The translations under genes were made by a program, and so were the position numbers. The notes below the pieces were generated by a model that was not told where the DNA came from, made no database searches, and saw only the letters and a program-made list of their open reading frames with translations. Shown here piece after piece: positions 10,701-39,494 of a DNA stretch of 45,909 bases. Within the stretch, counting starts at the first letter, position 1. Each line of letters opens with the position of its first letter. Origin of the DNA: Collimonas fungivorans (GTDB lineage: Bacteria; Pseudomonadota; Gammaproteobacteria; Burkholderiales; Burkholderiaceae_D); NCBI RefSeq assembly GCF_028292705.1, contig NZ_JAQGLV010000247.1, positions 1 to 45,909 on the forward strand, in the 5' to 3' direction.

Positions 10701-10725
10701 GTGCTATTTTTGGCGGTTTTCCATC
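10701..10725 (-). promoter_or_regulatory. Late-promoter-like element of the capsid operon
   Basis: On the minus strand GATGGAAAAC (10716-10725) is followed seven bases later by AATAGC. It lies about 110 bases before the capsid ATG, in the only gap of this cluster, and is one of six such elements in the window. Confidence 0.55.
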
Positions 10726-10735
10726 TTCGCGGAAT

Positions 10736-11212
10736 TTAGGCCAATGCTGCAATATCTTCCGTGATGGCAGCGATGGCGACATCCAGCGCAGCCGATTTTT
10801 CCTGTAGAGCGACTTCCATTTTTGGCGCCGCTGTCCGTATGCTGTCCGGTAACTGGATACGCACCTTCGCCATGGCGGCCTGGAATTTCGAGCGACCGGC
10901 ATCCATCATGCCGACCATCTCGCCAATGGCCGCTGCCTGGTCTTCCTGGCTTTTAAGCGGCACAATCTTCCCGTTCAGCTTGACCTGAAATATATCTCCC
11001 GATTGCTTAATGGAAAACGTCACCACCTGGCTATCGGCAAACGTCAGCACCATTTCGCGGTAGGAGACACCGGATGAGCGCTTGATATTGGGCGACACGT
11101 CGCCCTGGACGATATGGGAGCCCGCACGCGCGAAGTAGCGCACCACTGCGCGCGTCGCCGCATCTTTCTTGCTGCCCATGTCGTCAAAACTGAAAATGAG
11201 ATTCTTTGCCAT
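10736..11212 (-). CDS. DarA N-terminal-like internal (anti-restriction) protein
   Basis: A 158-residue protein with the ATG at 11212, behind AGGA. The opening (NLIFSFDDMGSKKDAATRAV, then VRYFARAG and VSPNIKRSSGVSYREM) matches my memory of the N-terminal domain of P1 DarA-type proteins, which are packaged with DNA and help to protect it from type I restriction. The remainder is a coiled-coil-like helical tail (MMDAGRSKFQAAMAKVRI, EKSAALDVAIAAITEDIAAL). Here the domain is a stand-alone gene at the end of the tube/spike operon, far from the larger DarA-like and DarB-like genes at 20-29 kb. It may be a head internal protein or a targeting module. The family call is from memory of motifs. Confidence 0.55.
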   Translation of the reverse strand: MAKNLIFSFDDMGSKKDAATRAVVRYFARAGSHIVQGDVSPNIKRSSGVSYREMVLTFADSQVVTFSIKQSGDIFQVKLNGKIVPLKSQEDQAAAIGEMVGMMDAGRSKFQAAMAKVRIQLPDSIRTAAPKMEVALQEKSAALDVAIAAITEDIAALA

Positions 11213-11233
11213 ACCGTTCCTTGTTATTGTTGA

Positions 11234-11827
11234 TTATGCTTTTGCCCGGCCAGTAGGTGGGCCGTCGTGTTCGTCGTGATGGTGCGATTCCACCCCAATA
11301 CCGTTGCTGACAATCTCTCCGCCGGTATTCTCAATGCCACCGTGAATTTGTGCTCCTGGGCCGCCACCGCCGTTAGATCCCGCCAGCCCAGCCTGATAGG
11401 TGAGCAAGCCGACAGACGTCACCTTCTCGGAAAACGTCGCCTGCGGCGTTTTCACGTCGACCATCTCACTGGCATTGATCTCGTAGCGTGCGCAGTTGAC
11501 ACGGAATATCCCGTCCGCGGTCAATTCGATGTTCGCGTGATGCCAGCGCCGCCAGTCGATCGCATTGCCGGCCCTGGCATTGCGAAAGCCGGTAATGATC
11601 GGATAGCGCGGATCGCCGCCCTCGAATGCCAACCAGACAAGATCACCTGGCACGATCTCGATCTCGGTCGCATGGCTGGCCGCTTTGCTCTTGTCGCCAA
11701 TCGGATACTCAATTTCCGCCAGCGGCAGCACATCGGCGCCATCTGTCAGGCCGGGAATTTCGACACGACACTCACGCGAGGCCGCCAAGTAGGAGTAGAC
11801 AATGCCGGGGATACGGGAAGGCAGCAT
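11234..11827 (-). CDS. Baseplate spike / assembly protein (gpV-like)
   Basis: A 197-residue protein with the ATG at 11827, behind GGAGGA. An N-terminal OB-fold-like beta domain (residues ~1-85: CRVEIPGLTDG, EIVPGDLVWLAFEGGDPRYP) is followed by a repetitive beta stretch and a C-terminus containing HHHDEHDGPPTGR. The HxH metal site and the PTG end are typical of membrane-piercing central spikes of P2/Mu-type baseplates, where iron is bound near the tip. It would trimerise under the baseplate hub encoded just upstream. Confidence 0.75.
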   Translation of the reverse strand: MLPSRIPGIVYSYLAASRECRVEIPGLTDGADVLPLAEIEYPIGDKSKAASHATEIEIVPGDLVWLAFEGGDPRYPIITGFRNARAGNAIDWRRWHHANIELTADGIFRVNCARYEINASEMVDVKTPQATFSEKVTSVGLLTYQAGLAGSNGGGGPGAQIHGGIENTGGEIVSNGIGVESHHHDEHDGPPTGRAKA

Positions 11828-11830
11828 GCG

Positions 11831-12724: not shown

Positions 12725-12727
12725 GGT

Positions 12728-13218: not shown

Positions 13219-13707
13219 TTAAATATTGCCCGGAATTTCTTCATTGAAATAATGGAAAAACAGCGTGCCCGAGATATTGAGCACCTGCGAACGGTTTTCC
13301 CAATCACGGTCCGGGTTATCCAGCTGGATGAAGCAATCGTAGATCGGCTTCGCAACAGAGAACTGGGACGGCGTGCCTTCATACACCTTGGCATTGAACT
13401 TGCCGCCGGTACGAATCAGGTTCAGCATCATTTTAGAGACGTGGCCGGCCTTGGTCTCCATCAAGGTGATTTGGCCTTGCTGGTTGATTTTGACCTGTTG
13501 CGCCTCCCATTTCGCCGCGCCGAGCGGCATGGGGATTTCAATTTCACCGGCGCTGGAGAGCTCAGGCCACGGAAACTGCTTGGTCAGCAGCCACATTTGC
13601 TCAAAACCCTCGATTTCGAAGGCGGCGTCGCTGGAGATGGCTTTGTCGCCCATCGCCCGAGCGGTGTTGTACAGGCTCTGCAAGTAAGCGGGATTGGATA
13701 CGGTCAT
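13219..13707 (-). CDS. Probable tail tube protein
   Basis: A 162-residue protein with the ATG at 13707, behind GAGGG. Size and pattern fit tail tube subunits: a short helical start, then alternating beta strands (FEIEGFEQMWLLTKQFPWP, GEIEIPMPLGAAKWEAQQ, INQQGQITLMET) and a final strand set (SQVLNISGTLFFHYFNEE). It is the first gene of an operon that continues with hub and spike genes, as expected for a tube. No sequence search was possible. Confidence 0.5.
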   Translation of the reverse strand: MTVSNPAYLQSLYNTARAMGDKAISSDAAFEIEGFEQMWLLTKQFPWPELSSAGEIEIPMPLGAAKWEAQQVKINQQGQITLMETKAGHVSKMMLNLIRTGGKFNAKVYEGTPSQFSVAKPIYDCFIQLDNPDRDWENRSQVLNISGTLFFHYFNEEIPGNI

Positions 13708-13760
13708 GGTGCCCTCATGCGGGTAAGTTAGATGATGGGCCTAACTTTACCGGCTCATGA

Positions 13761-13787
13761 AAGCCTAGGACGGGGACGTTTTCCATC
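13761..13787 (-). promoter_or_regulatory. Late-promoter-like element of the tube/hub/spike operon
   Basis: On the minus strand GATGGAAAAC (13778-13787) is followed by CCTAGGCT. It lies 71 bases before the probable tube ATG, between that gene and the oppositely oriented H-NS-like gene. Confidence 0.55.
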
Positions 13788-13891: not shown

Positions 13892-14230
13892 ATGACTACG
13901 AAAACCATTATGAATATATCAAACCTATCCATTATCGAACTACGCGCACTACTTGAGAAAATTGAAGAAGAAATAAAAATCCAAGAACATGACGAGCGTA
14001 TTCAGGCACGACAAAAGATATTAGCCATAGCGCAACAAGCAGGTATTTCGCTAGAAGATCTGCTCACAGCATCATCGCGTCCTAGCAACCGCCCTGCGAA
14101 AGCCAAAGTTGCCGTGCGCTACCGTCACCCAGTAAATACTTCCTTGCAATGGACCGGTCGCGGTCGTCAGCCCAAATGGATACAGGAATGGGAAGCAAGT
14201 GGTCAGTCTCTAGATGCCTTGAAGGTATGA
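13892..14230 (+). CDS. H-NS family DNA-binding protein (phage-borne)
   Basis: A 112-residue protein; the ATG at 13892 or 13910 could start it and neither has a clear ribosome site. The N-terminal half is a coiled-coil oligomerisation region (LRALLEKIEEEIKIQEHDER). The C-terminal 35 residues are the H-NS DNA-binding domain, YRHPVNTSLQWTGRGRQPKW, with the RGRQP hook that enters the minor groove of A/T-rich DNA. The form is that of betaproteobacterial H-NS-like proteins. It stands alone on the plus strand between two late operons and converges with the transglycosylase gene 19 bases away. The A/T-rich upstream region (13790-13891) contains CTGACA, 16 bases, TAATTC as a possible promoter. It could silence prophage late genes or alter host regulation. 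Confidence 0.85.
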   Translation: MTTKTIMNISNLSIIELRALLEKIEEEIKIQEHDERIQARQKILAIAQQAGISLEDLLTASSRPSNRPAKAKVAVRYRHPVNTSLQWTGRGRQPKWIQEWEASGQSLDALKV

Positions 14231-14249
14231 CCAATCTCCTATTTAATTG

Positions 14250-16613
14250 CTAGCCACCTACTGACATCCCCCCCGTCACTATATGAGCAATTTTTCGGTC
14301 ACGTAAATCTTGTCCGACATCAGACTTTGGCGCCACGACCGTCACCGATGCATTGGACGGTCTGGCATTAAGCTGCGTCGCCGGCAATATTGACGCGATC
14401 TCGGGGATATCCGGCATCTTCGCTATAGCAGGTGCGGTCGGTATGTTCGGAACGGCAGAGATATTCGGCACCGCCGGCGTTTGTGGCGTCATCGCTAGCG
14501 AGGGCATAGTACTCTTCGCCTGCATCGCTCTCGCATCCTGCGCGAAGAACTCGCCCATGCGCATTTTGTTGCCCATATTGTTATAGGCAACGCCGGCAGA
14601 GATCGTCCCGTCACCATACAGGCTTTTATTGTTTTTGATGACGGCCTCAATCCGCAAGCGCTCGCTATCGCTGACCTCACGACCACCCACCAGCGCATCC
14701 CGCACAGAGGTTTCTGGATTATTTTTCACCGCTTTCAGGATGCGGCCAGCATCCCCGTCACCGAGATTGTGATACGCGAAGACGTTCGCCGCGTCGTCCG
14801 TCCCGCCGAGCTTCCTCCCCTTTGCAATATTTTCCCGAGTAAATTCAGCTAGCATGCCAGCCTGAATTTTAGGATCGCTCCGGTACTTCTCTGCATCTTG
14901 CTTCGACAATTTCCCGGCGCCATCAACACCATACTTGCCACCATACTTATTGATCATGTCGGTCCAAGTACCATCGATAAACTGGCCGTAGCCGTGGGCG
15001 CTCGACAGCTTCTTACCGTTTTTCTGGATCGGGGCGGCGTCCTTATTGAAGCCACTCTCGAAATGCGCGATCTGCGCCACCACACCAGGATCGACACCAG
15101 CGGAGCTCGCCCCGCCGACCAGGTAGTCCTTCGCGGCCTGCCAGCGCTCATTGACCACCCGGCCAATGGGTGCGGCCATCTTGGCAACCCGCTCTTGTCC
15201 ATAATTGGCAGCGGCGCCAGCGGCGGCCGTCACTGGTTTGACCACATGCTGATCAACAGTCTCCACAGCAGCAACAGCCGTATTCTTGACTGCCGTAGCG
15301 GCATTGGTCACGTTCGTCTTGACATCAACACCAGTTTTTTCTTTGACAACCTCGTTAGCAGCGTTTCCCGCCTGAACGGCGAGATCCTTCACCACATTGG
15401 CGGCATTCCTGGCAATGTCAAATTTATCCTTAAAAAAGCCCGTAATCGCATCCCAGCCGTCACTGAATTTCTGAACGCCAGCGTCCCAGGTTGCCGTGAT
15501 CTTGCCGCCGATCTCTTTCCAGTCAAAGGTGGATAACCATTCGCCGGTGACTTCCCCCAGCTTGTCACCGATGAAACCGCCGATCATCGCGCCAATCGGA
15601 CCGCCAAAAGCCAGCCCTATGCCGCCGCCAATCAACGCACCGATGCCACTGCCGGCCCCGACAAAGCGGCCTTTCCGATTTTCTGCCTGCGTTTTGTCAG
15701 GATCATCGCTATCGAACATGCTGGCCAGCGCAGAACCGCCCGCCAGCATTGCCCCCAGCAACGGCAAGCGTCGGAACGCCCCTTTACCCAGCCCGAATAG
15801 CCCCTTACCACCCTTGCCTAGCAAATTCCCCAGCATCCCGAGTCCGGGAATTTTTGACGCCAAACGGTTCAGCAATCCTCCTGAGCTGCTGCCGGCGGCG
15901 GGCTTCTTCTCAATCGCGGCCAGCTTGCGCAGTTGCGCCTTGTTGAATTCCGTCTCATCCCGACGTAACCCCCGTAACTCTGTCCAGAGTCGCTTGAACC
16001 AAATAACCTTCTTCTTTTCTTCTCCATCGCGGCCAAGCATCTTGCCGAAACCACGTCCGACCGGCGTCACAATCGCACTGAGCTCCTTGGCGGCGGCGAT
16101 GGCAGGATCCACATCCGGCGCGCGGTCGATCGCATTCGATGCCATGGATCCCACCGCGCCGATTCTTCCGGAAACAGCCGAGCGGCCATCGGTACTATCG
16201 CCCTTTCCATTGCGTTCACTCGGCTGATCTTGCCCGGCGCGCGGCGCATTTGGCGTAATCGCCCGATCTGTCCGCACGAACCTGCCATTGGCATCGCGGC
16301 GCACAGTTGTAGGAAAGGCCGCCCGCAGCACATCCTTACTGACAACCGCCGTCTTCAGCAACGATGTGGGCTGTACAACCGCCCTGGAGGTGATCTGTAC
16401 CACCTTGGCAGCCGCGGCGCTTTGACGGCGCGGTAACGCAAGAGCTGGAGCCGTGCTGCTCTGGGTAGCCCGTTTAGCGGCAGCAGCACTTGAGGTGAGC
16501 GCCTGGCGGATGCCACGCACGTCATCCAGAATAGCCGCCCATAATTTCAGCGCTTCGCCCCAATCAGCAGGATCACCTACCAGGAAGCCAAAGCTATCGG
16601 ATTGAATGGTCAT
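14250..16613 (-). CDS. Virion protein with lytic transglycosylase domain and glycine zipper
   Basis: A 787-residue protein with the ATG at 16613, immediately after the previous stop. It has a low-complexity Ala/Arg-rich N-terminal part; a Gly-zipper membrane-active stretch around residues 310-350 (GAGSGIGALIGGGIGLAFGG); an amphipathic helical region; then an SLT lysozyme-like domain at ~500-640 with its catalytic Glu near 519 (AHFESGFN) followed by SSAHGYGQFIDGTW and NVFAYHNLG. The C-terminus is Pro/Ala-rich. P1 carries a comparable structural injection transglycosylase (Sit). It would open peptidoglycan locally during DNA injection. Its length and hydrophobic centre mean it might also be the tape measure; no other obvious tape measure is in the window. 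Confidence 0.8.
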   Translation of the reverse strand: MTIQSDSFGFLVGDPADWGEALKLWAAILDDVRGIRQALTSSAAAAKRATQSSTAPALALPRRQSAAAAKVVQITSRAVVQPTSLLKTAVVSKDVLRAAFPTTVRRDANGRFVRTDRAITPNAPRAGQDQPSERNGKGDSTDGRSAVSGRIGAVGSMASNAIDRAPDVDPAIAAAKELSAIVTPVGRGFGKMLGRDGEEKKKVIWFKRLWTELRGLRRDETEFNKAQLRKLAAIEKKPAAGSSSGGLLNRLASKIPGLGMLGNLLGKGGKGLFGLGKGAFRRLPLLGAMLAGGSALASMFDSDDPDKTQAENRKGRFVGAGSGIGALIGGGIGLAFGGPIGAMIGGFIGDKLGEVTGEWLSTFDWKEIGGKITATWDAGVQKFSDGWDAITGFFKDKFDIARNAANVVKDLAVQAGNAANEVVKEKTGVDVKTNVTNAATAVKNTAVAAVETVDQHVVKPVTAAAGAAANYGQERVAKMAAPIGRVVNERWQAAKDYLVGGASSAGVDPGVVAQIAHFESGFNKDAAPIQKNGKKLSSAHGYGQFIDGTWTDMINKYGGKYGVDGAGKLSKQDAEKYRSDPKIQAGMLAEFTRENIAKGRKLGGTDDAANVFAYHNLGDGDAGRILKAVKNNPETSVRDALVGGREVSDSERLRIEAVIKNNKSLYGDGTISAGVAYNNMGNKMRMGEFFAQDARAMQAKSTMPSLAMTPQTPAVPNISAVPNIPTAPAIAKMPDIPEIASILPATQLNARPSNASVTVVAPKSDVGQDLRDRKIAHIVTGGMSVGG

Positions 16614-18970: not shown

Positions 18971-19020
18971 GTTCGCTCTGAATCGTCTGTATTCAGCATT
19001 GTCGGGCAAAAGATGCGCAC

Positions 19021-19041
19021 GACTATTCGGCGGTTTCCATC
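19021..19041 (-). promoter_or_regulatory. Late-promoter-like element of the portal operon
   Basis: On the minus strand GATGGAAACC (19032-19041) is followed by GCCG and AATAGT. It lies 62 bases before the portal ATG and 17 bases from the vapBC operator on the other side. Confidence 0.55.
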
Positions 19042-20124: not shown

Positions 20125-23100
20125 TTAAGCAATAGAGATGTTGTAGCTGCGAACCTGATCCGCATAGTCCCGCAGGATCGTTTCATAGACCTCGCGCGGC
20201 ACCACCCACGAATTGACCGGTGCGCTCTGTAACTGCCTGGACGGCCACTTGCCTCGGAACATGGCCTTAAAGCCCATCGTCAGCGCAACCGATTTAATCG
20301 TATCCTTGAATGCCATCGTATTGCCGATGATCGCCACGTATTTTTCTAGTGGCGGCATTACATCAGTGACTGTCGCGGCAGGCACCTCGGCAGCCGGCGT
20401 CGGCGCTGGCTGCGTGAGCGCCAGGAATTTACGACGATAAGCGGCGTTCACCAATACTGAAAACGTCTCTCTGTAATGCGCGTCGATCGCCGGGTCGTCC
20501 CAATCCAGCGCCGCATAATAGGATATATACGCCTGTTTGCACAACCACACCAATTCCTCCGACGTGGTGGCGGCCTCGATGGCGGATACCATCGTGGCGT
20601 AGTCAATCGTGCCGATCACGCCATTGACCGCTCTCACCAGCGCCTCAACCAAGTCCGCGTCATCTTCGTCATGAAAAGCTTTCAGCGCCACCGCACTCAC
20701 TTTCATCCCTTGTGCAATGCCGTACCGTAGCAGCATTTTTGCGGTTTTCTCTAACGACGGCTTGCTGTAACGCTCAACGGTGGCATCGTCCGGCACCAGC
20801 ACACGAACGTTGCCATTCTGATCTGTGACGTATTCAACCTTCCCCTCCTGTTCGGCGACGATACGCTTAATCAGCGGCAAAGACTGGTCCGCCCCTTGTT
20901 TCAGCACGAGTGGAAACATCGGCTCCGGTAAAGTGACTTCATCGGGAAGCGCGCTAATCCTCGGCCCCACCTTCAAGGCGGCTTTCACATCCGCATTCAA
21001 CGCCGAATACAAAAGCCCGATTGTGGCAGCATTCATGCCGCCTTGACCGCGCGTAATCAGCCCGTCGTCAACAGCCGCGGCCCGCAACACCGTGGCACGG
21101 TAGATGGCATTATCCGGGTGTTCCTGGGTAATGATATTGCCGCTAAAGACAATACTTTCATCCGCGCGCTGGAGCTTCGCCGCTTCGGCATCGATTGTAC
21201 GTACGCTACTTGTCTTGCCATCTTCCACAATCCACAGGCGATTCTTGCGATCAATCACGAAGTCCCCTGTACCGACGATCTGATTGCGGATAATCTTTGC
21301 CTCACCGGTTTTAGCTTGTTCAATCCGGCCCAGCGACACGCCGGCGTCGGCACAGAGGCTCAGCGCCTTTGCTTCAGATTCATCAGCAAGCACGCGCGCC
21401 GTCGTCGTCTCAGCATCCCAGTTTTGCGCAATCGGCGACTCATCAACGACGGCGAACTGAAACGAGGTATAACGATTGCCGCCGGCGGAACTGGCAACGC
21501 TGCTCATAATACCGTTGCGATTGATCCCCTTGACTACCTGCGATCCACGCGCAGTCTCTACCCAGCTAGTTTGCCCAAATGCCTCTTCCAGTGTCTTGAG
21601 GCGACTGTCCGTGGCAATCGCGATACTTGCTTTGATCGGATTGGCGATCCGGTCATACACTGCCTGGGCCTTCGACAGCAACTCAGCGGCACGCGCGGTC
21701 TGCGCCGGATCCTTGGCGTCGGCATAGCGTGCATATCGCCCTTTCACCGCCGTCAGCTTCAGATAAGCTTCAGCGGCATCGGCTACCTGCTCGCCCAGGT
21801 AGATACCGACAGTCGGGTAGCGCGCCACGACTTCCCGCTGCGCCATCATGGTCGAGAGGTTGGCCGTCAGTGCGTCTTTGGCGCTACGTTGCCGCTCCAC
21901 CGCCTCACGGCTGGCGATTTTTTCGCGTACAGCACGCATACCCTCAGCGCTGCCGGCAGCCTCGGCCAGCATCTCCACATCCTGATTGGAAATGCCGCCA
22001 GCAATTTTTACCGAATTACCCTTGCCGGACATCAGCTCGCCGATCCAGTCGGCCTTCTTGCTGACGATGCCGCGCTTGTACTCATCGAAGGTACCGTCGG
22101 CGTCGTAATGATAAATCGTCACGCTTTGCAGCTTATTCTCCTGGCGCACGCCGCGCCCGTTGCGCTGATGCAGACTATCCGGCGTCCAACCAACGGTCAG
22201 ATGGTGGATGGCCTGCGTGCCCTTTTGCAGGTTGATGCCGACTTCGGCCTTCTTGTTGGCGATCACGACCGTAAAGCGGTTTTGTTCGCCTTCCGCATTA
22301 AAACCGTCTTGCACATCCTGCATCTGGCCGGCGTCCTTGATCGCCTCGGCATTGACGATGGCAATTGCGCCGGACGGAATGCCGCAGCGCTTGCCCAGCA
22401 TGATGCGGATCTTGTTATGCAGCGCCAGCATGTCGCAAAACACCAACTGCTTCGCCTTGCCGCCGGCCTTAGGTGCAGCCTGCTCCTGCTGGAAGTTGCC
22501 CAAGAACGCAGCCAGCTTGGGCGGGATCGTGACATCCAAGTCCAATTTGAGGGCGGTCGCAATCTTGAGGAACACGTTTTGGGTGGACTGCGACTCGGTA
22601 TCGATCACGATCTTTTCGCCGTCGATCGCAGCCACGACTCGGACTGTCAGCACCTCAACATCAGCGCCATCGCCGTCACCGCCGCCCTTCTTGATCGTCC
22701 GTTTTACTATACTCTCGTCACTTTGCATCAAGGTAGGCCGATTACGCTCTTCCGTCACCTTCTTGGCATTGAACTGATCGACGGCCTGCTGGGCGATCTC
22801 CGCTTGCGAAGCCGGGAACAAGTAGACCGAAGTCTGGCGCGCGGTTTCTGGATCCGCAATGAGCTTACTGACCTTGTTAATAAAATTGAATGGGTGCGCC
22901 ACCAGCTCCGGCGTCTCGCGGCTTTGTTTTAGGTAAGCAAACAATTCATCCTGTTCGTGCGGTGAAACAGGCTTTTCGCGGACGAGACGCGACGCCGTGC
23001 TATACAGCCGCTGCATGCGCTTCAGCTCCTCCGTCATCGCTTCCGGCAACTCGACCGCCGTGGGCAGCTCCTGCGCTTCTGGGATCGACAAATCCACCTC

Positions 23101-26973: not shown

Positions 26974-26978
26974 GGTGT

Positions 26979-29498
26979 TCAATTGCTCAGTGTTTGGGAG
27001 GCTGCTGCCATCATGGCGGCGGTATAGGTAGAAACGGCACGCTGCCATTTCGCAAGGATCTCGGCGTCGTCGGGATTGCGCGTCAGGATGGCTTCGATAT
27101 TGGTCGACAGCGCCGGATCAAAGATGTCGACCTGGCCGTCGATCACAGACTGCAGGAATGCTTCGTCTGCCGTCATTTCGGCTGGCAGCTCAGGAATTGC
27201 GGGCGCGGATTGTTCAACCGGCGTCGGCTCATTTACCACGGCAGGTTCAGCGACCGCCTCTTGGGTAACTTCCACCGGCGCTGGAACGGCTTCGGCTTCG
27301 GCAACGATTGGCAATTCGGTCACCGGCTGCGACTCTGGAACTGGCGTTGGTTCTTCTACAGCCGCTTCCGGTGCGGTGGCGGCCATTGGCGCCACTAGCT
27401 CAGCCGATTTTCGCTTACCCTTCGAAAAAGCCCGCTCCAATGCATACTGAATGCCCAAGGCGTTCGTTTCCAGCTTGACGACATATTTGCCGCGCTTACC
27501 GGCGACGGTGATCGTCGCGCCGTCAATGGCATCCACCACGCAATTGGTATTAACCTTAAAATCGTTGAAGACCAGCGTGCCCAATGTAGTGCCCACCCGG
27601 AGGTTCAACTTGCCCTCGGCATCGGCCAGCGCCTTGCGCGCGCTCTGATTACGAATGAATTCCCGAGCGTAGTAGACCTCCATACCAAAAATTCCACCCT
27701 CAACTTCGCCTTTACCGACCTCCGTGTCGCCGGGACGCAAATAGCTACCAAAATCCGTAATCACGGACGCCAGGACGTCGGTGGTATAGAACTTGCCGGC
27801 ATCTAACGCACGTTGAACGGCTTCAATGACCTTTTGCATATAGGGCTCAATCGTTCCAGCTCCATTGGTCGCGGCACGCCAGCGCGCGGAAGCCTCGGCG
27901 ATGTTTTCGGATAGGGGGTAATAGTCGCCATCGTCGGCTTGATCGCCTGCGGGATCCGCCACCGCCGCAGGTGCGACAACAGCCGGATCGGTTTCGGCAA
28001 CTGGATCAACTGTCACAACCGCAGGGATAGCGGGAACAAGATCGGCGGCCGCCAGCGGCAATACCACTTCGGAAATTGGATTGTTCCCCTCCGGCGCTTC
28101 AACGGCCGGTGGCGCCACGATCTCTTCCGGTGTAATGTCGCCCGTCTCGACCGAAACAGGATCCGCGACAGGTTCGGGCGGTGTCGCAACCACGACAATT
28201 GGTTCAGGGGCTGATTCCGAAGCTGGCTCAGTGATCGGCTCAGCGACAGGATCAGCGATAGGTGCCGCCGGCGTGGTGCTGATACTATCCGGAACACTGG
28301 GCGTAGACTCCTTCTCGACGCGCCTGACTTCCAGCTCGCGCTGCAACCGTGCCAAGGTAGCTTCTTTTTCCGTGATCGCTGTCTTCAATGCGTCAATCGC
28401 CTGCATGCGCGCAGAGCGCTTCGCATTGGCGCGCTGGAACGTGGCCGAATTCCGTTCGGCTAAGCGCATCAGGCGATTTGCCACCTCGCGCACGTTCAGA
28501 TCAACGCCACGCTCAGGGGCAGCAACAATTGTCACGTCCTTCTTGTTGAGCATCCACTTCCAGGAAATGAGATCGTCCGTTGGCGTGATCTTTTGCGGCG
28601 TCACATCCGGATTGTGAAAGAAGATACTGAGCGTCTGCCCATCCGACAGTTCGTAGACCACCGCTACATTGGCCGTTCCCCGCTGCTTGAACGGTTCGGT
28701 GATCTGCATGGCGACCGGCTTGACAGTGCCGCCAGTGCGCTCCATGACGTTTTGCAGGATCTGCATCTTGCGCTCAAGCTTCGCAAATGGCGTCACCAGC
28801 GCATCGAAGGTATAGACACCTTCCGCATCATCCAGAATATCCGTCACGCTCAACGGGTCGTACATCAACCCGTCATCATCGTGGCGCCGAATGTCGTACA
28901 GCAGCCCGTCATAGGTATTGCCAATGGGAGACTCACCGTCCCACATTACTTTTTTCATGTTGTCGTACCCTAAAATTGGAAGAGACGCCGCGTTGATCGG
29001 CTTGGTGTGGTTGCCATGCTTGGCCCACCATTTGAGTTGAGAAATGGGAATCGGGACGATGTCACCCAGCCCTTGCCAGCCTCGGTGATAGCTTTCCAGA
29101 TAGGCGCAGAATGCCGATTGCGCATCCGGAAAGCCCAGCATGATTTTGTGCTCATCAAACGCACCTGCCTGCTGATCGACCTGGTTAATCACAAAAGCGG
29201 CTCGGGATTCTGGGTAATAGCCGATGAATACGTCCAGCGCGTCTCCATCATTGCCAGTCGTACCAACGAGATAGCCGTAATGCGCTGACATTCTGTTCTG
29301 CCATGGCCGGCCGGCAGCATCGACGCCGGAGCGAAACGATCCGCGCGGCTGCTCGATGGCGACGGCCATGCCGTGAAGGGTTGTTCTACCTACTTTGTAA
29401 TTACTCGCCAGTTTCTGCGCCTGAGTCGGCTCCGGCAGATTGTTGTGCCCCATTGCGCCACGATGGGCGTCGGCTTCGATGCGCGTGAATTCGTCCAT
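26979..29498 (-). CDS. Polyvalent protein: pyrophosphatase-like domain plus DarA C-terminal-like region
   Basis: An 839-residue protein with the ATG at 29498. Residues ~25-175 resemble the inorganic-pyrophosphatase-like domain of phage polyvalent proteins (KVGRTTLHGMAVAIEQPRGS, GYLVGTTGNDGDALDVFIGY, WWAKHGNHTKPINA). Residues ~195-390 (YDPLSVTDILDDAEGVYTFD, WKWMLNKKDVTIVAAPERGV) look like the C-terminal region of DarA-type proteins. Pro/Ala/Glu/Val-rich linkers follow at ~400-520 and ~690-770, separated by a globular domain, with a short helical C-terminus. Polyvalent proteins are known to be injected with phage or plasmid DNA. It is the first gene of the operon with the DarB-like protein, and probably its partner in protecting incoming DNA. 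Family names are from memory of motifs. Confidence 0.6.
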   Translation of the reverse strand: MDEFTRIEADAHRGAMGHNNLPEPTQAQKLASNYKVGRTTLHGMAVAIEQPRGSFRSGVDAAGRPWQNRMSAHYGYLVGTTGNDGDALDVFIGYYPESRAAFVINQVDQQAGAFDEHKIMLGFPDAQSAFCAYLESYHRGWQGLGDIVPIPISQLKWWAKHGNHTKPINAASLPILGYDNMKKVMWDGESPIGNTYDGLLYDIRRHDDDGLMYDPLSVTDILDDAEGVYTFDALVTPFAKLERKMQILQNVMERTGGTVKPVAMQITEPFKQRGTANVAVVYELSDGQTLSIFFHNPDVTPQKITPTDDLISWKWMLNKKDVTIVAAPERGVDLNVREVANRLMRLAERNSATFQRANAKRSARMQAIDALKTAITEKEATLARLQRELEVRRVEKESTPSVPDSISTTPAAPIADPVAEPITEPASESAPEPIVVVATPPEPVADPVSVETGDITPEEIVAPPAVEAPEGNNPISEVVLPLAAADLVPAIPAVVTVDPVAETDPAVVAPAAVADPAGDQADDGDYYPLSENIAEASARWRAATNGAGTIEPYMQKVIEAVQRALDAGKFYTTDVLASVITDFGSYLRPGDTEVGKGEVEGGIFGMEVYYAREFIRNQSARKALADAEGKLNLRVGTTLGTLVFNDFKVNTNCVVDAIDGATITVAGKRGKYVVKLETNALGIQYALERAFSKGKRKSAELVAPMAATAPEAAVEEPTPVPESQPVTELPIVAEAEAVPAPVEVTQEAVAEPAVVNEPTPVEQSAPAIPELPAEMTADEAFLQSVIDGQVDIFDPALSTNIEAILTRNPDDAEILAKWQRAVSTYTAAMMAAASQTLSN

Positions 29499-29540
29499 GT
29501 ACCCCCTTCATTGCAGTGCATGATAGGGGTAACGGGAGAG

Positions 29541-29563
29541 CGATTTTAGGAGTGTTTTCCAGC
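29541..29563 (-). promoter_or_regulatory. Late-promoter-like element of the Dar-like operon
   Basis: On the minus strand GCTGGAAAAC (29554-29563) is followed by ACTCC and TAAAAT, the best -10 match of the six copies. It lies 56 bases before the ATG of the polyvalent protein. Confidence 0.6.
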
Positions 29564-32223: not shown

Positions 32224-32831
32224 GCTGAAACCAATGCAGTGCTGGCGTCATCAGGTGCAACCGGCCAAACGACGGGATGTGGAAAATGCGTTTGCTCCGG
32301 AACGCGGTTCAAATTCACCCGATATTTTTTCCACGCTTTGAGCGCGATAACATCGTCATCACTGGCCACCTCCACATCGACTCGGTCCTGATACTTGGTT
32401 ACCTGGTCATTGGCGCGACGCAGCTCACGCGCAATACGTGATAGCGCCGCATCCAAGAGCTCGGTATGAGTTGGAAAATAGTCCGGTGCCGGTCCGCGCT
32501 TACCAGACTTACACTCGGCATAAATTGCACGTCCGTGTATCTCAATATCATCTTCGCATGCTAAGAAAGTCAAATAGTCATCCCTGGCATCAAATTTGAC
32601 CGAACATCGATATCCATTTGGAAGCCGTACGATATTTTTGATCTCGGAATATGCGAACGGATCGACCTGTTCTAGCGCAATTGCTGGCGCTGGCAGTTGT
32701 GGTGGCACCACAACTTTCGACGCTGGGATGGGCATAGGATCGACAATAATAGGCAATTCCGTCTCTGCCGTGATCTCTTCATGTTGCCCATTTTCTGACA
32801 CCAACTCCATTGGTTTTTCTATCATTTCCAT
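32220..32831 (-). CDS. Tail fibre assembly protein
   Basis: The best start is the ATG at 32831, coupled to the fibre stop as TAATG, with AGGG before it, giving 203 residues; upstream starts would lie within the fibre gene. The N-terminus is acidic and Pro-rich. The C-terminus has the signature of fibre assembly chaperones: a helical region then ALKAWKKYRVNLNRVPEQ and a final VVWPVAP. The position just after the fibre gene fits. Its C-terminus continues ~15 residues past the Trp-Pro motif. Confidence 0.7.
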   Translation of the reverse strand: MEMIEKPMELVSENGQHEEITAETELPIIVDPMPIPASKVVVPPQLPAPAIALEQVDPFAYSEIKNIVRLPNGYRCSVKFDARDDYLTFLACEDDIEIHGRAIYAECKSGKRGPAPDYFPTHTELLDAALSRIARELRRANDQVTKYQDRVDVEVASDDDVIALKAWKKYRVNLNRVPEQTHFPHPVVWPVAPDDASTALVSA

Positions 32832-34882
32832 TACGCTACCCTTTGCCATAAAGCCGTTCGTGTGCCGCCGCCGCCATCGCCGCCCGACCCGAAGTCGTAG
32901 GCATAGCCGCGCGGTTCCCACGCGCCGGCGACCTCAGGAGAAGTCCAGTTCTTGTTCAGGATGTACCCGCCAATGCTTTGGTTTTGTAATCCCGGACCGG
33001 TCAGTTGGTTCGCATAGACGGCATTGACGGCGGAGCCGACCGCCAGCGCGGTGCGGTTGTAGATAGAGAACTCGTTGTGACCGGCTTCGATGGCCAGAAT
33101 GTAATAAGGCTGATTGCCCAGCGGATTCTCCGCGTACCGTAGCGGCATACCAGCCCATTTATCGGCGTTACCTGCACTGGTCGCATAGTTGGCGCTATTG
33201 GCATAGCTGACGTTGAAGTTAGACGGGTTGTAGACGCGTACATCACCTGGCGCATTGCCGCCGAGAAGCCAGGAGGGCTGGCCACCCATGCCGGACCATG
33301 CCAGGGCGATGCCGGCGCCGTTGACTTTGCTGCCGGGATCGAAATTACCGGAATGCCAGAACTTGCTCCAGCCGCTCCAGGTCGTCCCCTTGCCGGACCG
33401 ATACCAGACATTGTTACTGTCGGTAAATCCAAACTGATGTGCGTTACCGCCGCTGAAATCCACGCCTTCGCCCCAAGGGCGAAAGGTCATGGCGCCGTGA
33501 TATGAGCCGCCATCATTCAAACCGGCAGCGGCGTTGCTCTTCATGTCGAAGTAGGCGCCGACATTGCGATCCTGGGGCGCGTAGTTGCTGGCGCGGGTGT
33601 CCCTGGAGGCAACTATGTCGGCGATACCAGCAGTGCGGGCATAACCCACCCGCAGATTATTGGTCGTCATCAGTCGGGCGCTGGTCGGGCCGTCGCTGCC
33701 CCATACCCAGGCGGTTTGTCCACCTGAATCGCCCCACATAAATTTCATCCAGTCGGCGCCGTTGGTCACCGAATTGGCTTTCTGCGCCGAATTGACGTCG
33801 AAATTCAAAGGGTCATACAGGTTGACGTCGCCGGCGGCGGCACCGCCCAACAGCCCGGACGGTTGCCCGGCAAGACCTTTCCAATTAATGCGAATTGACC
33901 GGTCCCCAAACACAAAGCTACCCATGTCCGTTTTGTCGACCGTGGCCTTTAGCCCTGCGCCATCTGACCAGCCAACCTTGACGGCATTCGCCGTTTGACC
34001 AATACCGGTGCCTTGCTGGATCGGCGTAAACCCTAGCTTGTCTTGCTTGGCGCCTGGATCAAACGTCGCGGCATCCCAGAGCAGTTTCCAGTCATGGCCC
34101 TCAAAGGGATTATTGGCGCCCAGGTAGCCGGTACGTTCCCAGGTGCGGTGGGCAATCGTGGCCTCTGCATAGACCTGCTGCACGAACTGACCGCCGTTCT
34201 CGGTGGTCAAGGTGCCGTAACCATCGGCGCCCATCGGCAGTCTGGTGGCCGCGATGACGCCGCGATCATTGGCTACCGAGACATCGCGCACGCCTGTTTC
34301 CAGCAGAATGTCGCAGTCGGTATCGCTATTGGTATACGCTGGCAGCTTGCGGTAATACCGGCTATCGCCACGTACCTGAGTTAGATATTGCGGATGAGGA
34401 TCGCCGGCAGTCTCGTGTGCACCAATCAATTGAATTGCCGTATTAACGTTCGGATCGACCAACACCGACACTGAATCAGACGGTAGTGCGGTTAAGCCCA
34501 GCGTGTAAGAGACAGTGGTAACACTGTCATCTGCAAAATACAGAATGGGCTGATCCGACTTGCTGTAGACCGCGAACAGAGTGTCGCCAGCATAAAAGCC
34601 GATTTCACCACACCAGAATGGTGATCCAGCGGGCGCGATCGCTTCAGCATGCACCTGAATCTGCGTCGGAGACACCTTACCGCCGCCGGCAATTGCTACC
34701 CGCATCATTTCATGCTGCAAGCCTATTTCGGCGCCATTCGGCCTATATTTACCCGTACCGAAAGCAATATGGCTGACGGCAACCTCAACCCCGGTTTTAG
34801 GGACATTAATCGCGGCCATCACGCCGGCCCCGGTGAGGGTCGGGCTAATCGTTCTTGGTTGCGTCTTGATTTGGGAGCTCAT
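32831..34882 (-). CDS. Tail fibre protein
   Basis: A 683-residue protein with the ATG at 34882. Residues ~5-150 match the N-terminal attachment domain of P2/Mu-type fibres (TLTGAGVMAAINVPKTGVEV, HIAFGTGKYRP, WCGEIGFYAGDTLFAVYSKS). HETAGDPHPQYLTQV follows, then knob-like modules with GYGTLTTENGGQFVQQVYAE and ATFDPGAK. Two related modules repeat: QPSGLLGGAAAGDVNLYDP and QPSWLLGGNAPGDVRVYNP, about 210 residues apart. The tip is Gly-rich (GSGGDGGGGTRTALWQRVA). It should bind the host surface. No invertible alternative C-terminal segment, as in P1 or Mu, is visible here. Confidence 0.85.
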   Translation of the reverse strand: MSSQIKTQPRTISPTLTGAGVMAAINVPKTGVEVAVSHIAFGTGKYRPNGAEIGLQHEMMRVAIAGGGKVSPTQIQVHAEAIAPAGSPFWCGEIGFYAGDTLFAVYSKSDQPILYFADDSVTTVSYTLGLTALPSDSVSVLVDPNVNTAIQLIGAHETAGDPHPQYLTQVRGDSRYYRKLPAYTNSDTDCDILLETGVRDVSVANDRGVIAATRLPMGADGYGTLTTENGGQFVQQVYAEATIAHRTWERTGYLGANNPFEGHDWKLLWDAATFDPGAKQDKLGFTPIQQGTGIGQTANAVKVGWSDGAGLKATVDKTDMGSFVFGDRSIRINWKGLAGQPSGLLGGAAAGDVNLYDPLNFDVNSAQKANSVTNGADWMKFMWGDSGGQTAWVWGSDGPTSARLMTTNNLRVGYARTAGIADIVASRDTRASNYAPQDRNVGAYFDMKSNAAAGLNDGGSYHGAMTFRPWGEGVDFSGGNAHQFGFTDSNNVWYRSGKGTTWSGWSKFWHSGNFDPGSKVNGAGIALAWSGMGGQPSWLLGGNAPGDVRVYNPSNFNVSYANSANYATSAGNADKWAGMPLRYAENPLGNQPYYILAIEAGHNEFSIYNRTALAVGSAVNAVYANQLTGPGLQNQSIGGYILNKNWTSPEVAGAWEPRGYAYDFGSGGDGGGGTRTALWQRVA

Positions 34883-34950
34883 CGGATGGAGAGCGATCTT
34901 GATGACCGCCGTAGCTGAAAATGTTGGTGCTATTTTCTGCTACGCCGTTC

Positions 34951-34975
34951 CCTACTATTGGTGATGTTTTCCATT
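34951..34975 (-). promoter_or_regulatory. Late-promoter-like element of the tail fibre operon
   Basis: On the minus strand AATGGAAAAC (34966-34975) is followed by ATCACC and AATAGT. It lies 84 bases before the fibre ATG and touches the end of the upstream operon. Confidence 0.55.
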
Positions 34976-37073: not shown

Positions 37074-37718
37074 TCAGTGCGGTGAAGGCAGCAACACTTC
37101 GCCTTCAGCTCGATAAAATTGCTGCGCCATGGCGCCGTTAAAAAGACCTATCTCATTCTCAAAGCGCTTTAGCAGCGATAGCTGCAGCACATACTTGGCG
37201 GCAATCACCGCGCGCAATGCGGGCGCCACCATCGGAATATTCATTCCCATTTCTCCTTCATCATCGATCGACACCCGGATCCGGCTGGTCAGATAATGGG
37301 TAGCGCTAGGATCTGCGCTGCCAATGCTGCTAGCACTGCTCAAGGCCGTTGGATAGGACTTGTTCTTATCCTGCCAAAGCTGCTCGACAATCCAGCCATT
37401 CGGCCAGAGCAGTTGCAGATACATCCGAAGGAAATGCAATCCCCGCTTGGGATTGCGCGCGCGCCAGGCTTTATAGAGATAGCGCATGGCCGGCTCTTCG
37501 GTACGAATCAGCGCCAGCCCCTCCCGTTTGACGTGCCGCTCGATCAAGGGCAAGGAACCCAGGTGCGGCACGCCGTAGACGTTTAACTCTCGCTCAGCAT
37601 CCCGCAAGTGGGTCTCGAACAGAAACAGGACAAGCTGCTTTAGCTCAGCTTCCAGCGCATTGGCATCGTGGCTGTGCTGGAGCGGCGCAAGCGATGGGAT
37701 TCTGCTGTCGACGCCCAT
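37074..37718 (-). CDS. Putative baseplate protein (gpI-like position)
   Basis: A 214-residue protein whose ATG at 37718 overlaps the stop of the gpJ-like gene (TAATG). It contains LNVYGVPHLGSLPLIERHVK, RNPKRGLHFLRMYLQLLWPN and GWIVEQLWQDK, then RVSIDDEGEMGMNIPMVAPA. In P2-like and P1-like baseplates the gene after gpJ is commonly gpI, which joins fibres to the wedge. The family call rests mostly on order. Confidence 0.45.
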   Translation of the reverse strand: MGVDSRIPSLAPLQHSHDANALEAELKQLVLFLFETHLRDAERELNVYGVPHLGSLPLIERHVKREGLALIRTEEPAMRYLYKAWRARNPKRGLHFLRMYLQLLWPNGWIVEQLWQDKNKSYPTALSSASSIGSADPSATHYLTSRIRVSIDDEGEMGMNIPMVAPALRAVIAAKYVLQLSLLKRFENEIGLFNGAMAQQFYRAEGEVLLPSPH

Positions 37719-39154
37719 TACTGGCCCCAGGAACCAAGGTTGTAATTGGCCAAAGTCACGGAGACGTGCAGGCTATCCGGCGTCATGTAGCGGAAATGTT
37801 CAGGCAGCTGCTTACCTTGCATCGGTGTAATCGTCACTGAAAAATCACTCCCCGAATCCTGCAACGCCTGAACGTTGTTCTTGAGCAGCGCGTAGATCGC
37901 CTTGTATTTCACCACCAGCATGCCGGCGCGAATTGGCACAGCCTTCTCACCGTATTCCTTCAGCAGTACATCCAGAATCTGCTTTTTAACAGCAACGGCA
38001 TCATGAATACGCGCTACCTCGGCGACGATGGTCATACCGATAGCAAGAATGGCTGGAGTGATGAACACGATGCGATAGGAGTCGTCGGCGGCTTTGATGA
38101 CGCGCACAATCTCTTGTTCGATCGATTCGCGCGTGGCGCCATCGGGTGGAACAAAAGAGACGAACAGCCGGTTGATATTGTCCAGGCTCGACCCGCGTAC
38201 CAACTCTTCAATCGTTTCATTCCAGATCGAGAGGAATTTCAAACCGGCGATATTGCGGCGAACCAGGAAATCAAACTCACCCAGGTACACCGCCGTCTGA
38301 TCATAGGCGGACGGGTATTTGCAGAGCTCTCGCAGCGTCGCAATATCAATAGGCGCGGCGCCCGGAATCAATAGCGAGTCCATCGTGATTTTAATGAGGC
38401 CGTCTTGCGGCGCTATCGCATAATCCAGGGCAAAGGGGCTGCCGGCGTCCGGCCGCACGTCCCCGGTGGTCTCATATACAGTCAGGGTGAGAATCTCGCC
38501 GACGCTGGGTTGAAAGCCGACATAGCCAGCGTATCCAAAGACGACAAACAAGCGCCGGTATTCGTCGCATTCCACATGGAATACCTTGTCGCCATTGGCA
38601 ACATTCGTAAATTCCACACTATATGTATACGGTGTTCCGGCCGCATCGGCGACTGAGATGCCGCTGATAAAGCGCCCATCGCTGGGCTGCGGCACCTCAA
38701 TCTTATAGAACGGCTGCGAGAAGGTCACAGTATGCTCAATGGCGCGAACCTGCTTTTGCATCAACTCAGCATGCCCCACGCCGCCGGCCGACACCGTCAC
38801 CGGCGAGTCGGCAACGTACATGCGGCCGCTCGAATCCAGCAGGCCGCGACCGGCGCCAATGGAAAACGCAGCATTGGTAGGATTCTCAACTTTCACCTTC
38901 ACGCGCGCCGGCGTTGCCATCGGCATCAGGCCCTTCAGCGAGGCATCAGCCAGCACAGTCGAATCTCGCACCTTGTCAAAGGGCTCCATCGCGCCAAGCT
39001 CGATCTGCTGCGACATCATCGCCATCATCTGCGCAATGGCAGATTGCGCCTGCAGCAGCCGCGGATCGCCCACCTGGTACAACGCCGCCAGCTCAGGGAA
39101 CTGCGAGACGGAATTGACGATCACCCGATCAAAATCTTCTTTGGAATAGGCCAT
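37718..39154 (-). CDS. Baseplate wedge protein, gpJ-like
   Basis: A 478-residue protein with the ATG at 39154, one base after the gp25-like stop. The N-terminal helical region (ELAALYQVGDPRLLQAQSAI, QQIELGAMEPFDKVRDSTVL) precedes the bundle ASLKGLMPMATPARVKVKVE and GRGLLDSSGRMYV, the pattern of baseplate J proteins ('..a...g....pa.g....v'). The C-terminal half has FVPPDGATRESIEQEIVRVI, then the arm region with AEVARIHDAVAVKKQILDVL. It follows a gp25-like gene as gpJ follows gpW in P2. It forms the wedge ring of the baseplate. Confidence 0.7.
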   Translation of the reverse strand: MAYSKEDFDRVIVNSVSQFPELAALYQVGDPRLLQAQSAIAQMMAMMSQQIELGAMEPFDKVRDSTVLADASLKGLMPMATPARVKVKVENPTNAAFSIGAGRGLLDSSGRMYVADSPVTVSAGGVGHAELMQKQVRAIEHTVTFSQPFYKIEVPQPSDGRFISGISVADAAGTPYTYSVEFTNVANGDKVFHVECDEYRRLFVVFGYAGYVGFQPSVGEILTLTVYETTGDVRPDAGSPFALDYAIAPQDGLIKITMDSLLIPGAAPIDIATLRELCKYPSAYDQTAVYLGEFDFLVRRNIAGLKFLSIWNETIEELVRGSSLDNINRLFVSFVPPDGATRESIEQEIVRVIKAADDSYRIVFITPAILAIGMTIVAEVARIHDAVAVKKQILDVLLKEYGEKAVPIRAGMLVVKYKAIYALLKNNVQALQDSGSDFSVTITPMQGKQLPEHFRYMTPDSLHVSVTLANYNLGSWGQ

Positions 39155-39155
39155 G

Positions 39156-39443
39156 TCAGCTCACGCGCTCCTGCCAGCCGGCGACGTCAACAATCAACTC
39201 GCGGCGATCCGGCAGCGCATCCACGTAGAAGACATTCACGGCGCCAGCCGGCATCGCCTCCAGCGCCGGCACGTCCTCGCGCATCTTGCCGATGAAAGCA
39301 TCGCCGATGCCGGCGGCCATGGGATTTTGCAGCAACGACTGGGGATCAGCGCCATAGTCGGAACCGAGATAGCCGTTAGGTGGCGTACTCAGCCAGTGGC
39401 TGACCATGGCTTGAATGTCTTGGGCGGTGATTGTCGGTGTCAT
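39156..39443 (-). CDS. gp25/gpW-like baseplate wedge protein
   Basis: A 95-residue protein with the ATG at 39443. The central NGYLGSDYGADPQSLLQNPM and the C-terminal beta part ending in ELIVDVAGWQERVS recall gp25-like baseplate proteins, where a 'G...YG.d...ll..p' segment is followed by a short beta sheet. It is the first gene of the baseplate operon and directly precedes the gpJ-like gene, the usual order. Confidence 0.6.
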   Translation of the reverse strand: MTPTITAQDIQAMVSHWLSTPPNGYLGSDYGADPQSLLQNPMAAGIGDAFIGKMREDVPALEAMPAGAVNVFYVDALPDRRELIVDVAGWQERVS

Positions 39444-39471
39444 GGCGATGATGATAGGGCCATCGCCGAGG

Positions 39472-39494
39472 GTGAGATAAGGGGGTTTTCCTAC
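39472..39494 (-). promoter_or_regulatory. Late-promoter-like element of the baseplate operon
   Basis: On the minus strand AGTAGGAAAAC (ending 39485) is followed by CCCC and TTATCT. It lies 42 bases before the gp25-like ATG; the core differs from the others in TA for AT before GGAAAAC. Confidence 0.5.

Follow-up and report, generated by a model that had tools for sequence, protein, structure and literature searches.

The closest described system is the late regulon of phage P1. According to the published account, P1 has 11 late promoters, in which a 9-bp repeat is the site of the activator Lpa, and the gene order is lpa-pacA-pacB (PMC10695390). In the P1 annotation, 4 nt separate the 9-bp box from the -10 hexamer at 10 of the 11 promoters, and 9 nt do so at LPhot. 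Class II geometry is known from lambda cI at PRM and from the controller (C) proteins of restriction systems, which combine an XRE-type fold in their helix-turn-helix (HTH) part with a site adjoining the -35 region. As a rule, XRE proteins are dimers on palindromic sites, and the operators of lambda cI and the C proteins are roughly symmetric. Mu C, Mor, P2 Ogr and the late and middle factors of T4 are likewise phage proteins acting at late or middle promoters, where they compensate for weak or missing promoter elements, but these proteins and their sites differ from those considered here. XRE factors are reportedly common to Caulobacter and its phage phiCbK, according to one study. For the phage-plasmid/prophage group treated below, no description of late control was found in the open-licence literature.

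The window, a stretch of 45,909 nucleotides from Collimonas fungivorans (contig NZ_JAQGLV010000247.1), carries seven elements which are probably sigma70-type late promoters devoid of a -35, with a box 28 nt before the -10 that would be read by an XRE/HTH_3 activator of the phage. They are compiled here together with the terminase gene:

39485..39491, minus strand: promoter 1, putative activator box GGAAAAC
39451..39456, minus strand: promoter 1, -10 TATCAT, 28 nt past the box; the ATG of the ORF at 39156-39443 starts 7 nt later
34966..34972, minus strand: promoter 2, putative activator box GGAAAAC, tail fibre gene 32831-34882
34932..34937, minus strand: promoter 2, -10 GAAAAT
29554..29560, minus strand: promoter 3, putative activator box GGAAAAC, gene 26979-29498 for 839 amino acids, with the DarB-like gene 20125-27048 downstream
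29520..29525, minus strand: promoter 3, -10 TATCAT
19032..19038, minus strand: promoter 4, putative activator box GGAAACC, portal gene with its likely start read at 18970
18998..19003, minus strand: promoter 4, -10 GACAAT
13778..13784, minus strand: promoter 5, putative activator box GGAAAAC, tail tube gene 13219-13707
13744..13749, minus strand: promoter 5, -10 TAAAGT
10716..10722, minus strand: promoter 6, putative activator box GGAAAAC, gene 8933-10606, with the sheath gene downstream
10682..10687, minus strand: promoter 6, -10 AATAAT
4426..4432, minus strand: promoter 7, putative activator box GGAAAAC, holin gene 3798-4199 and GH19 endolysin gene 2895-3596
4392..4397, minus strand: promoter 7, -10 TATATT
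44488..45909, minus strand: large terminase gene, truncated where the contig ends; upstream of it, and thus beyond this contig, relatives have a small terminase gene and an XRE gene

A 98% counterpart of the product of gene 8933-10606 matches P1 gene 23 (major capsid).

Six elements, exactly one for each late operon, had been described in the earlier note. All six are present at the minus-strand positions reported, as exact TGGAAAAC at 10716, 13778, 29554 and 34966 and as the variants TGGAAACC at 19032 and AGGAAAAC at 39485; the tally of one per operon and a total of six needs a small correction, because a further promoter, overlooked at the time, lies at 4426-4432 before the holin/lysis operon and is conserved in relatives. 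Exact TGGAAAAC occurs eight times in the window, where 1.42 copies are expected and none of 100 shuffles reached eight. The remaining four copies are located on the plus strand at 11011 and 38860, at 23761 inside the DarB-like gene, and at 4426 ahead of the holin gene. If the box (GGAAAAC or GGAAACC) is required to be followed after 28 nt by a hexamer with a -10 score of at least 2, seven matches are obtained on the minus (late) strand and none on the plus strand, as compared with a mean of 0.09 and a maximum of 2 in dinucleotide shuffles (0 of 300 reaching 7). With the hexamer relaxed to xAxxxT, an eighth minus-strand match appears at 23767 in the DarB-like gene (AAGCGT), which is taken for chance. 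None of the seven sites has more than three of six matches to TTGACA in the -35 region, such that several operons of the window share one promoter type without a -35 hexamer.

The spacing places the box far from where it had been put. The TA-containing boxes proposed as -10 begin 4, 4, 5, 6, 7 and 8 nt after the element and score poorly, with means over the six sites of -1.14 bits at offset 5 and -2.23 bits at offset 4. At offset 28 the mean is 5.78 bits, the next best offset gives -0.37, and none of 20000 random shifts matched the value at 28; the scoring frequencies were textbook values. The six sites had been picked without regard to spacing, yet the score peaks only at this offset. At seven of seven window sites a sigma70-like -10 hexamer begins exactly 28 nt downstream of the box, which therefore occupies -47 to -41, with its centre near -44 rather than at -20 to -25 as suggested before, and adjoins the -35 region at a fixed distance, as a class II sigma70 activator site does.

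The comparison with P1 is instructive. The likeness is that many late operons each have their own promoter without a -35, and that a box stands at a near-fixed distance from a sigma70-like -10. As to gene order, lpa lies directly upstream of pacA-pacB in P1, and in the relatives the gene of the XRE protein, the candidate activator, lies upstream of the terminase. On the other hand, the P1 box is AAGTGACTT-like and mostly precedes the -10 by 4 nt, whereas here GGAAAAC and its variants precede it by 28 nt, and Lpa (phrog_1704) is without sequence relation to the XRE protein. Thus, the proposal of a P1-type late signal holds insofar as the promoters are P1-like in lacking a -35 and likely have an activator of their own specificity, but with the box centred near -44 and the -10 following 28 nt on, this is not the -22 box of P1 in another sequence.

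The position of the start codons supports the start site as well. Of the 92 sites kept out of 139 on deduplication, 13 have an ATG 6-7 nt past the -10, compared with 1.6% of 5412 control hexamers (p 4e-9; ORFs of at least 60 codons, with the 6-7 nt window chosen after the histogram had been viewed). This placement suggests that some late mRNAs are leaderless, possibly including that of the ORF at 39156-39443.

A motif search in relatives, as advocated earlier, recovered the architecture in the window and seven other sequences; the eight come from Collimonas, Xanthomonas, Ideonella, Burkholderia and Pseudomonas. The boxes differ by lineage (GGAAAAC, GGAAAG, CGCAAACC): the elements of Collimonas, Xanthomonas and Ideonella have a GGAAAA core in common, GGAAAG occurs in the plasmid of P. 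psychrotolerans, and CGCAAACC in those of P. putida, P. atacamensis and P. fluorescens. With gene starts listed by hand from the annotation, the -10 score peaks at offset 28 in three relatives (Rb1, Ideonella and P. psychrotolerans) and one nucleotide further on, at 29, in P. putida and B. vietnamiensis; the peak of B. vietnamiensis is weak, with 61 of 5000 shifts scoring as high, and two of the seven Rb1 elements score better at offset 27 or 31. A blind search then tried every 6-mer at offsets 10-44; for P. psychrotolerans it covered positions 1-70000 of a plasmid of 114250 bases, and for Ideonella a 41.7-kb stretch surrounding the sheath gene. In all eight sequences the box was the top match of the late strand, with log10 p values of -5.6 to -16.9, as against -3.2 to -6.9 on the opposite strands. 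Taken alone, the window is not significant in this search (-5.6 versus -5.0 on its opposite strand), and in P1 no motif stands out (-5.2 and -5.1). In Rb1, a GGAAAAA-N28-GATAAT element overlaps the annotated start of the XRE gene; a CI operator upstream of that gene was considered and rejected, a strict TACCTCGGGGTA-type pattern matching only at 9081 and 13958.

No second half-site was detected in 48 deduplicated promoters (101 sites, reduced to 55 by removal of those with at least 60% identity, and to 48 by a -10 score above 1), so that the two-fold symmetric operator of XRE proteins was not found; since the pattern used to collect the sites prescribes GGAAAA followed by A or C, as well as positions -11 and -7, the information at these positions arises by construction. 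In contrast to the symmetric operators of lambda cI and the C proteins, a single asymmetric box is present here.

An activator gene outside the window had been predicted, and in relatives a regulator gene does lie upstream of the terminase; it encodes an XRE protein, not an Lpa-like one. This phage XRE/HTH_3 protein is likely the activator. In eleven gene sets (P1, the window and nine relatives, those of Ideonella and C. humicola being partial), 14 hand-picked genes were looked for; alone among the regulators, the XRE family is present in the sets of all nine relatives, and it is absent from P1. The gene lies on the terminase strand and upstream of the terminase in seven of seven annotated relatives, at a distance from the small terminase gene of 3 kb in P. 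psychrotolerans and 8-10 kb in two Collimonas genomes. Of the 16 better terminase loci (L035-L050), 13 contain it, the stretches fetched for the other three being without it, as are 12 weak terminase loci; fragments under 180 aa were left out of the XRE set. The draft assembly from which the window derives (86.9% complete, 418 contigs) has no match, and the contig ends within the terminase gene. Two of 15 Collimonas genomes (G005, G009) have the XRE gene but no sheath gene. HTH_31 is matched by 14 and HTH_3 by 11 of 15 candidate members (E 0.01), and there is a weak RstR-family match under the curated cut-off. Other candidates were considered: an AlpA-family gene directly before the small terminase in C. 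humicola was rejected as absent from the other sets, and a 133-aa gene adjoining the XRE gene is found only in Collimonas among the sets scanned. The Rb1 gene annotated as an MvaT regulator is widespread, but as it is also present in P1 (at gp25, tail) and matches a tail-protein PHROG, it is regarded as structural.

In the structure model of the XRE protein the HTH part is confident and the model as a whole is not (pTM 0.43), and the fold search therefore counts for the HTH only. Among the best 50 Foldseek matches C.BclI came first, accompanied by C.AhdI and the 434 and lambda repressor domains; only the HTH part was matched, none at E 0.001 or better, and the long helical tail was left uncovered by the best matches. 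Helix 64-71 of the model corresponds to the recognition-helix segment. Twelve of 14 XRE proteins were compared (omitting OK412 as a near-duplicate of COL and L041 for want of an established box), using pairs with at most 20% C-terminal identity. Box classes came from the blind search for Rb1, Ideonella, B. vietnamiensis and the four Pseudomonas plasmids, and from site searches for L024, L028, L031 and L046, the last based on few sites; COL has the Collimonas box. The identity of the recognition helix is 0.64 in 10 same-box pairs versus 0.26 in 35 different-box pairs, the ranges touching at 0.45 (lowest same-box and highest different-box), while the gaps of the other four HTH segments are -0.09, 0.12, 0.03 and -0.08; on these sequences, the recognition helix appears to track the box far more than the other segments do. 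With the C-terminal limit relaxed to 25%, gaps of 0.15 for helix 2 and 0.13 for helix 4 appear in addition. The pairs are interdependent, with in effect three box classes and few changes.

Building on the box, its fixed spacing, the -10, their conservation, the place of the XRE gene and the covariation of helix and box, the following mechanism can be proposed. An XRE/HTH_3 protein of ca. 200-250 aa, encoded close to the terminase and consisting of an N-terminal HTH followed by a long helical part, would be made on induction, and its recognition helix would bind the box beside the position of sigma region 4. There, we infer, it would activate and would touch sigma: RNA polymerase would be recruited by a contact replacing that of the -35, in the class II manner known for lambda cI at PRM. 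The operons for virion and lysis proteins would thus be switched on together.

Among the alternatives, the one that survives best keeps the promoters as described and has the box read by a phage protein outside the XRE family, for example one of AlpA type or an unannotated small protein. The AlpA gene that C. humicola has directly before its small terminase gene and the unusual binding of an XRE protein to a half-site without a palindrome speak for it, and an unrecognised DNA-binding protein is possible since just 14 hand-picked genes were compared; the restricted occurrence of AlpA and of the 133-aa neighbour, together with the helix-box covariation favouring XRE, makes it unlikely. Rather improbable is a role of the XRE protein as a repressor that blocks the late promoters in lysogeny through the box. 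XRE/HTH_3 proteins are often repressors, and the weak RstR match points the same way, but a box at -47 to -41 lies upstream of the core promoter, and promoters without a recognisable -35 should need an activator. Moreover, the XRE gene occupies the place that lpa has in P1, and a CI-like repressor is encoded by a gene of its own in Rb1, B. vietnamiensis and C. humicola. A host transcription factor could account for the window having no activator gene and its incomplete draft genome no XRE relative, but is very improbable, as boxes differ within one host genus (P. psychrotolerans versus the other three Pseudomonas species) and the GGAAAA core crosses the hosts Collimonas, Xanthomonas and Ideonella. 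Finally, an Lpa-type box near -22, for which the TA box shortly after it would serve as -10, although the late region is P1-like and such a TA box follows each of the six elements, is scarcely credible given the scores at offsets 5 and 28, the spread of the TA boxes over 4-8 nt, the want of a peak in their range in five relatives (save P. putida at offset 5, a poor fifth with -4.31), the different sequence of P1's own box, and a search of ORFs for Lpa relatives that found P1 only, with none in the window, whose element is incomplete, or in the sets of nine relatives, two of them partial.

Returning to the XRE activator, a broader picture with about even chances of being correct is that of a non-enteric P1-like branch in which an XRE protein in the lpa slot binds a single asymmetric half-site at -44 and takes over from the -35 contact, as a second late switch unrelated to Lpa; recognition helix and box would drift in step, leaving related phage-plasmids deaf to each other's late programmes, and some late mRNAs would be leaderless. 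If right, the finding would describe the late-gene switch of a wide phage-plasmid/prophage group in Collimonas, Xanthomonas, Burkholderia, Ideonella and Pseudomonas, in which an unrelated protein would have taken over from the P1-like master late activator, with its gene in the same position and with a different promoter geometry. The pairs of XRE protein and box would constitute a natural series for reading the DNA specificity of a recognition helix, and the promoter signature, which fits on one line, may be used to annotate late operons.

All six elements that the earlier note reported on the minus strand are present in the window. When a generic sigma70 -10 matrix was slid along the sequence that follows each of the six boxes (GGAAAAC or a variant), the scores by distance showed one sharp peak, 28 nt past the box, with a mean of 5.78 bits (next best -0.37), a value reached by 0 of 20000 random shifts. 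Offset 5, close to the box like the TA boxes that had been taken for the -10, scored a mean of -1.14 bits, and the TA boxes are very unlikely in this role. Exact TGGAAAAC is indeed enriched (8 exact copies vs 1.42 expected), but two copies reside on the plus strand, one inside the DarB-like gene. A search of the whole window for GGAAAAC or GGAAACC with a -10 score of at least 2 at 28 nt returned the six reported sites plus a seventh on the minus strand, and no match on the plus strand; a looser hexamer requirement adds one match, at 23767, within the DarB-like gene. The count of one element per late operon, six in all, has to be amended by the following promoter, found by this box plus -10 search:

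box 4426-4432, -10 TATATT 4392-4397, minus strand: seventh promoter, ahead of the holin gene

It is conserved, again with TATATT, in 11 of 22 sheath loci (L012, L014-L018, L022, L025, L031-L033) and occurs with a related spacer in 5 of 15 Collimonas genomes, two more genomes matching through unrelated sequence.

At 45909 bases, the window takes up all of contig C175, one of 418 in a draft genome that is 86.9% complete. It represents the late region of a P1-like myophage prophage, with portal, sheath, tube, baseplate and tail fibre genes, and also encodes Hdf-, Ulx- and DarB-like proteins, a holin and a GH19 endolysin. A tyrosine integrase is located at one end and the large terminase at the other. 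The terminase is 99% alike in sequences of Collimonas humicola and Collimonas sp. OK412, which places the host in Collimonas or very close to that genus. Further features are:

1204-2067: the tyrosine integrase
40407-41495, plus strand: GIY-YIG protein
41546-42757: DndB-like protein
43363-44196: D12 adenine methyltransferase

The C. humicola copy sits on a 1.9-Mb contig, and for this reason the element seems to be integrated; most annotated relatives are plasmids.

The same promoter architecture was found in relatives. There, gene starts were listed by hand, an element was accepted solely on a short core ahead of such a start, and the -10 was scored by offset. The peak lies at 28 in Xanthomonas phage Rb1 (elements at 7 of 31 starts), the Ideonella element (6 of 10) and the P. 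psychrotolerans plasmid (core GGAAAG, 8 of 15). It lies at 29 in B. vietnamiensis pBVIE05 (7 of 29), where it is weak, 61 of 5000 shifts reaching it, and two sites are at 28, and also at 29 in P. putida pKF715C (core CGCAAA), where 14 elements, some of them not real sites, fall at 9 of 26 starts. Because these cores had first been picked out by eye, a blind test was made of every 6-mer at every offset of 10-44 on the late strand (about 143,000 tests per strand). The box ranked top on the late strand in eight of eight sequences, the window and seven relatives, including the P. atacamensis and P. fluorescens plasmids, whose promoters had not been inspected beforehand and which both gave CGCAAACC. 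Values of log10 p were -7.7 for Rb1, -15.5 for Ideonella, -8.3 for B. vietnamiensis, -16.9 for P. psychrotolerans, -9.3 for P. putida, -7.9 for P. atacamensis and -10.3 for P. fluorescens; on the opposite strands of the eight the values ran from -3.2 to -6.9, and P1 gave -5.2 on one strand and -5.1 on the other. The window alone (-5.6) is not significant in this test, the weight of which is the agreement across eight sequences.

In an alignment anchored at the -10, the boxes have G(-47), G/C(-46), AAA(-45 to -43), A/G/C(-42) and mostly C or T at -41, which is also A in Rb1; B. vietnamiensis boxes are mostly shifted by one base. Among 48 deduplicated GGAAAA-class sites, in which the box, -11 and -7 were fixed by the search pattern, the most informative free positions are -9 and -8 (about 0.5 bits) and C/G at -38 (0.46), and neither a -35 nor a second half-site is seen. 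Of 92 deduplicated sites, 13 have an ATG (ORF of at least 60 codons) that follows the -10 hexamer by 6 or 7 nt; among 5412 control hexamers the share is 1.6% (p 4e-9, with the range of 6-7 nt picked after the histogram was seen). Contributing sequences are the window, Rb1, Ideonella (2), B. vietnamiensis, P. psychrotolerans, P. fluorescens and the loci L020, L022, L026, L027, L031 and L046, and none of the sites is from P. putida or P. atacamensis. Examples are:

window 39156-39443: ORF with ATG 6-7 nt after the -10
Rb1 65072: ATG 6-7 nt after the -10
locus L006 29531 and 41312: ATG 6-7 nt after the -10

Such spacing is support for the predicted start site that does not depend on the box, and it hints that leaderless mRNAs may occur among the late transcripts.

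In P1, lpa lies directly upstream of LPpac-pacA-pacB; in the relatives this place is taken by a gene of the XRE/HTH_3 family. By tblastn with terminase proteins and annotation, it is upstream of terminase on the same strand in seven of seven annotated relatives. In Ideonella, P. atacamensis, P. putida and P. fluorescens it adjoins the small terminase, at distances of roughly 20 to 700 bases. The two are separated by one small gene in Rb1 and by 3 kb in P. psychrotolerans, and in B. vietnamiensis the XRE gene is one gene upstream of the large terminase, the intervening gene not being recognised as small terminase. In OK412 and C. humicola, other genes spanning 8 to 10 kb lie between the XRE gene and the small terminase. 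In C. humicola an AlpA-family regulator (PF05930; L035 8802-9044) directly precedes the small terminase; the other sets searched yielded no such gene. Several extra fragments along the same chromosomes (G008:C11, G013:C1) repeat the 3' part of the XRE gene, and these, together with the 8-10 kb of intervening genes, point to a possible insertion hot spot at the 3' end of that gene. In the P. psychrotolerans plasmid record CP018759.1 there are two large-terminase copies of equal identity (14017-15429 and 108259-109671), to be explained by a long duplication or by overlapping ends of the assembled record.

An XRE profile matched 13 of the 16 better terminase loci (L036-L041, L043-L048, L050; frame broken in L047 and L048), none of L035, L042 and L049 (the L035 copy lies just outside, in L090), none of the 12 weak terminase loci L051-L062, and 6 of 22 sheath loci. 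The sheath gene occurs in 4 of 15 Collimonas genomes; three of these are good assemblies that all have the XRE gene, and the fourth is the window's own draft genome, in which it was not found. Two of the 15 have the XRE gene without the sheath gene. When 14 hand-picked genes were tried, the XRE family appeared in all nine sets from relatives and was absent from P1 and the window; one of the other queries, a second XRE gene of Rb1, picked up this same family. Lpa was found in P1 alone among these sets. The other widespread gene of the 14 was rejected as a tail protein also present in P1:

Rb1 33621-34700, XPA09441.1: annotated transcriptional regulator MvaT, in the family of P1 gp25 and a tail-protein PHROG

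Its MvaT annotation looks wrong.

The recognition helix of the XRE proteins follows the box. GGAAAA boxes go with YSNSSQLSKIE (Collimonas), YSNSSKLSKVE (Ideonella), YANPSKLSKVE (Rb1) and YANSTQLSLIE (B. vietnamiensis), GGAAAG with QKQCSQVSQWE (P. psychrotolerans), and CGCAAACC with HKGVTQISLFE (P. putida), HEGVTQISLYE (P. atacamensis) and HSNLTMISLFE (P. fluorescens). At C-terminal identity of at most 20%, the 10 same-box pairs average 0.64 identity in the helix and the 35 different-box pairs 0.26, figures to which no p-value is attached because the protein pairs are not independent; the corresponding gaps are -0.09, 0.12, 0.03 and -0.08 in the other HTH segments and 0.01 in the C-terminal part. 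Raising the limit to 25% (17 and 35 pairs) gives a recognition-helix gap of 0.42, with 0.15 and 0.13 for helices 2 and 4. The Collimonas and Ideonella proteins share 82% identity in this helix vs 27% in the remainder, and in a structure model the segment is the third helix of a confidently predicted HTH, after which come two long helices.

No description of this late-promoter system was found in open-licence literature on P1-like late promoters, phage-plasmid late motifs, XRE late activators and the named phage and plasmid records, which is no proof of novelty. P1 is described in PMC10695390 as having 11 late promoters with a 9-bp inverted repeat as the Lpa site. The main weakness of reading the XRE protein as activator is that no symmetric operator is seen. 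CI-like repressor genes are present in Rb1, B. vietnamiensis and C. humicola, and TACCTCGGGGTA-type palindromes upstream of Rb1 genes (9081 and 13958) are possibly operators of the Rb1 repressor. Late activation would work in a fashion similar to that of P1, while differing in box position and in Lpa, two defining P1 features. The XRE protein would most likely bind the box beside the sigma region 4 site and recruit RNA polymerase there, standing in for the -35 contact.
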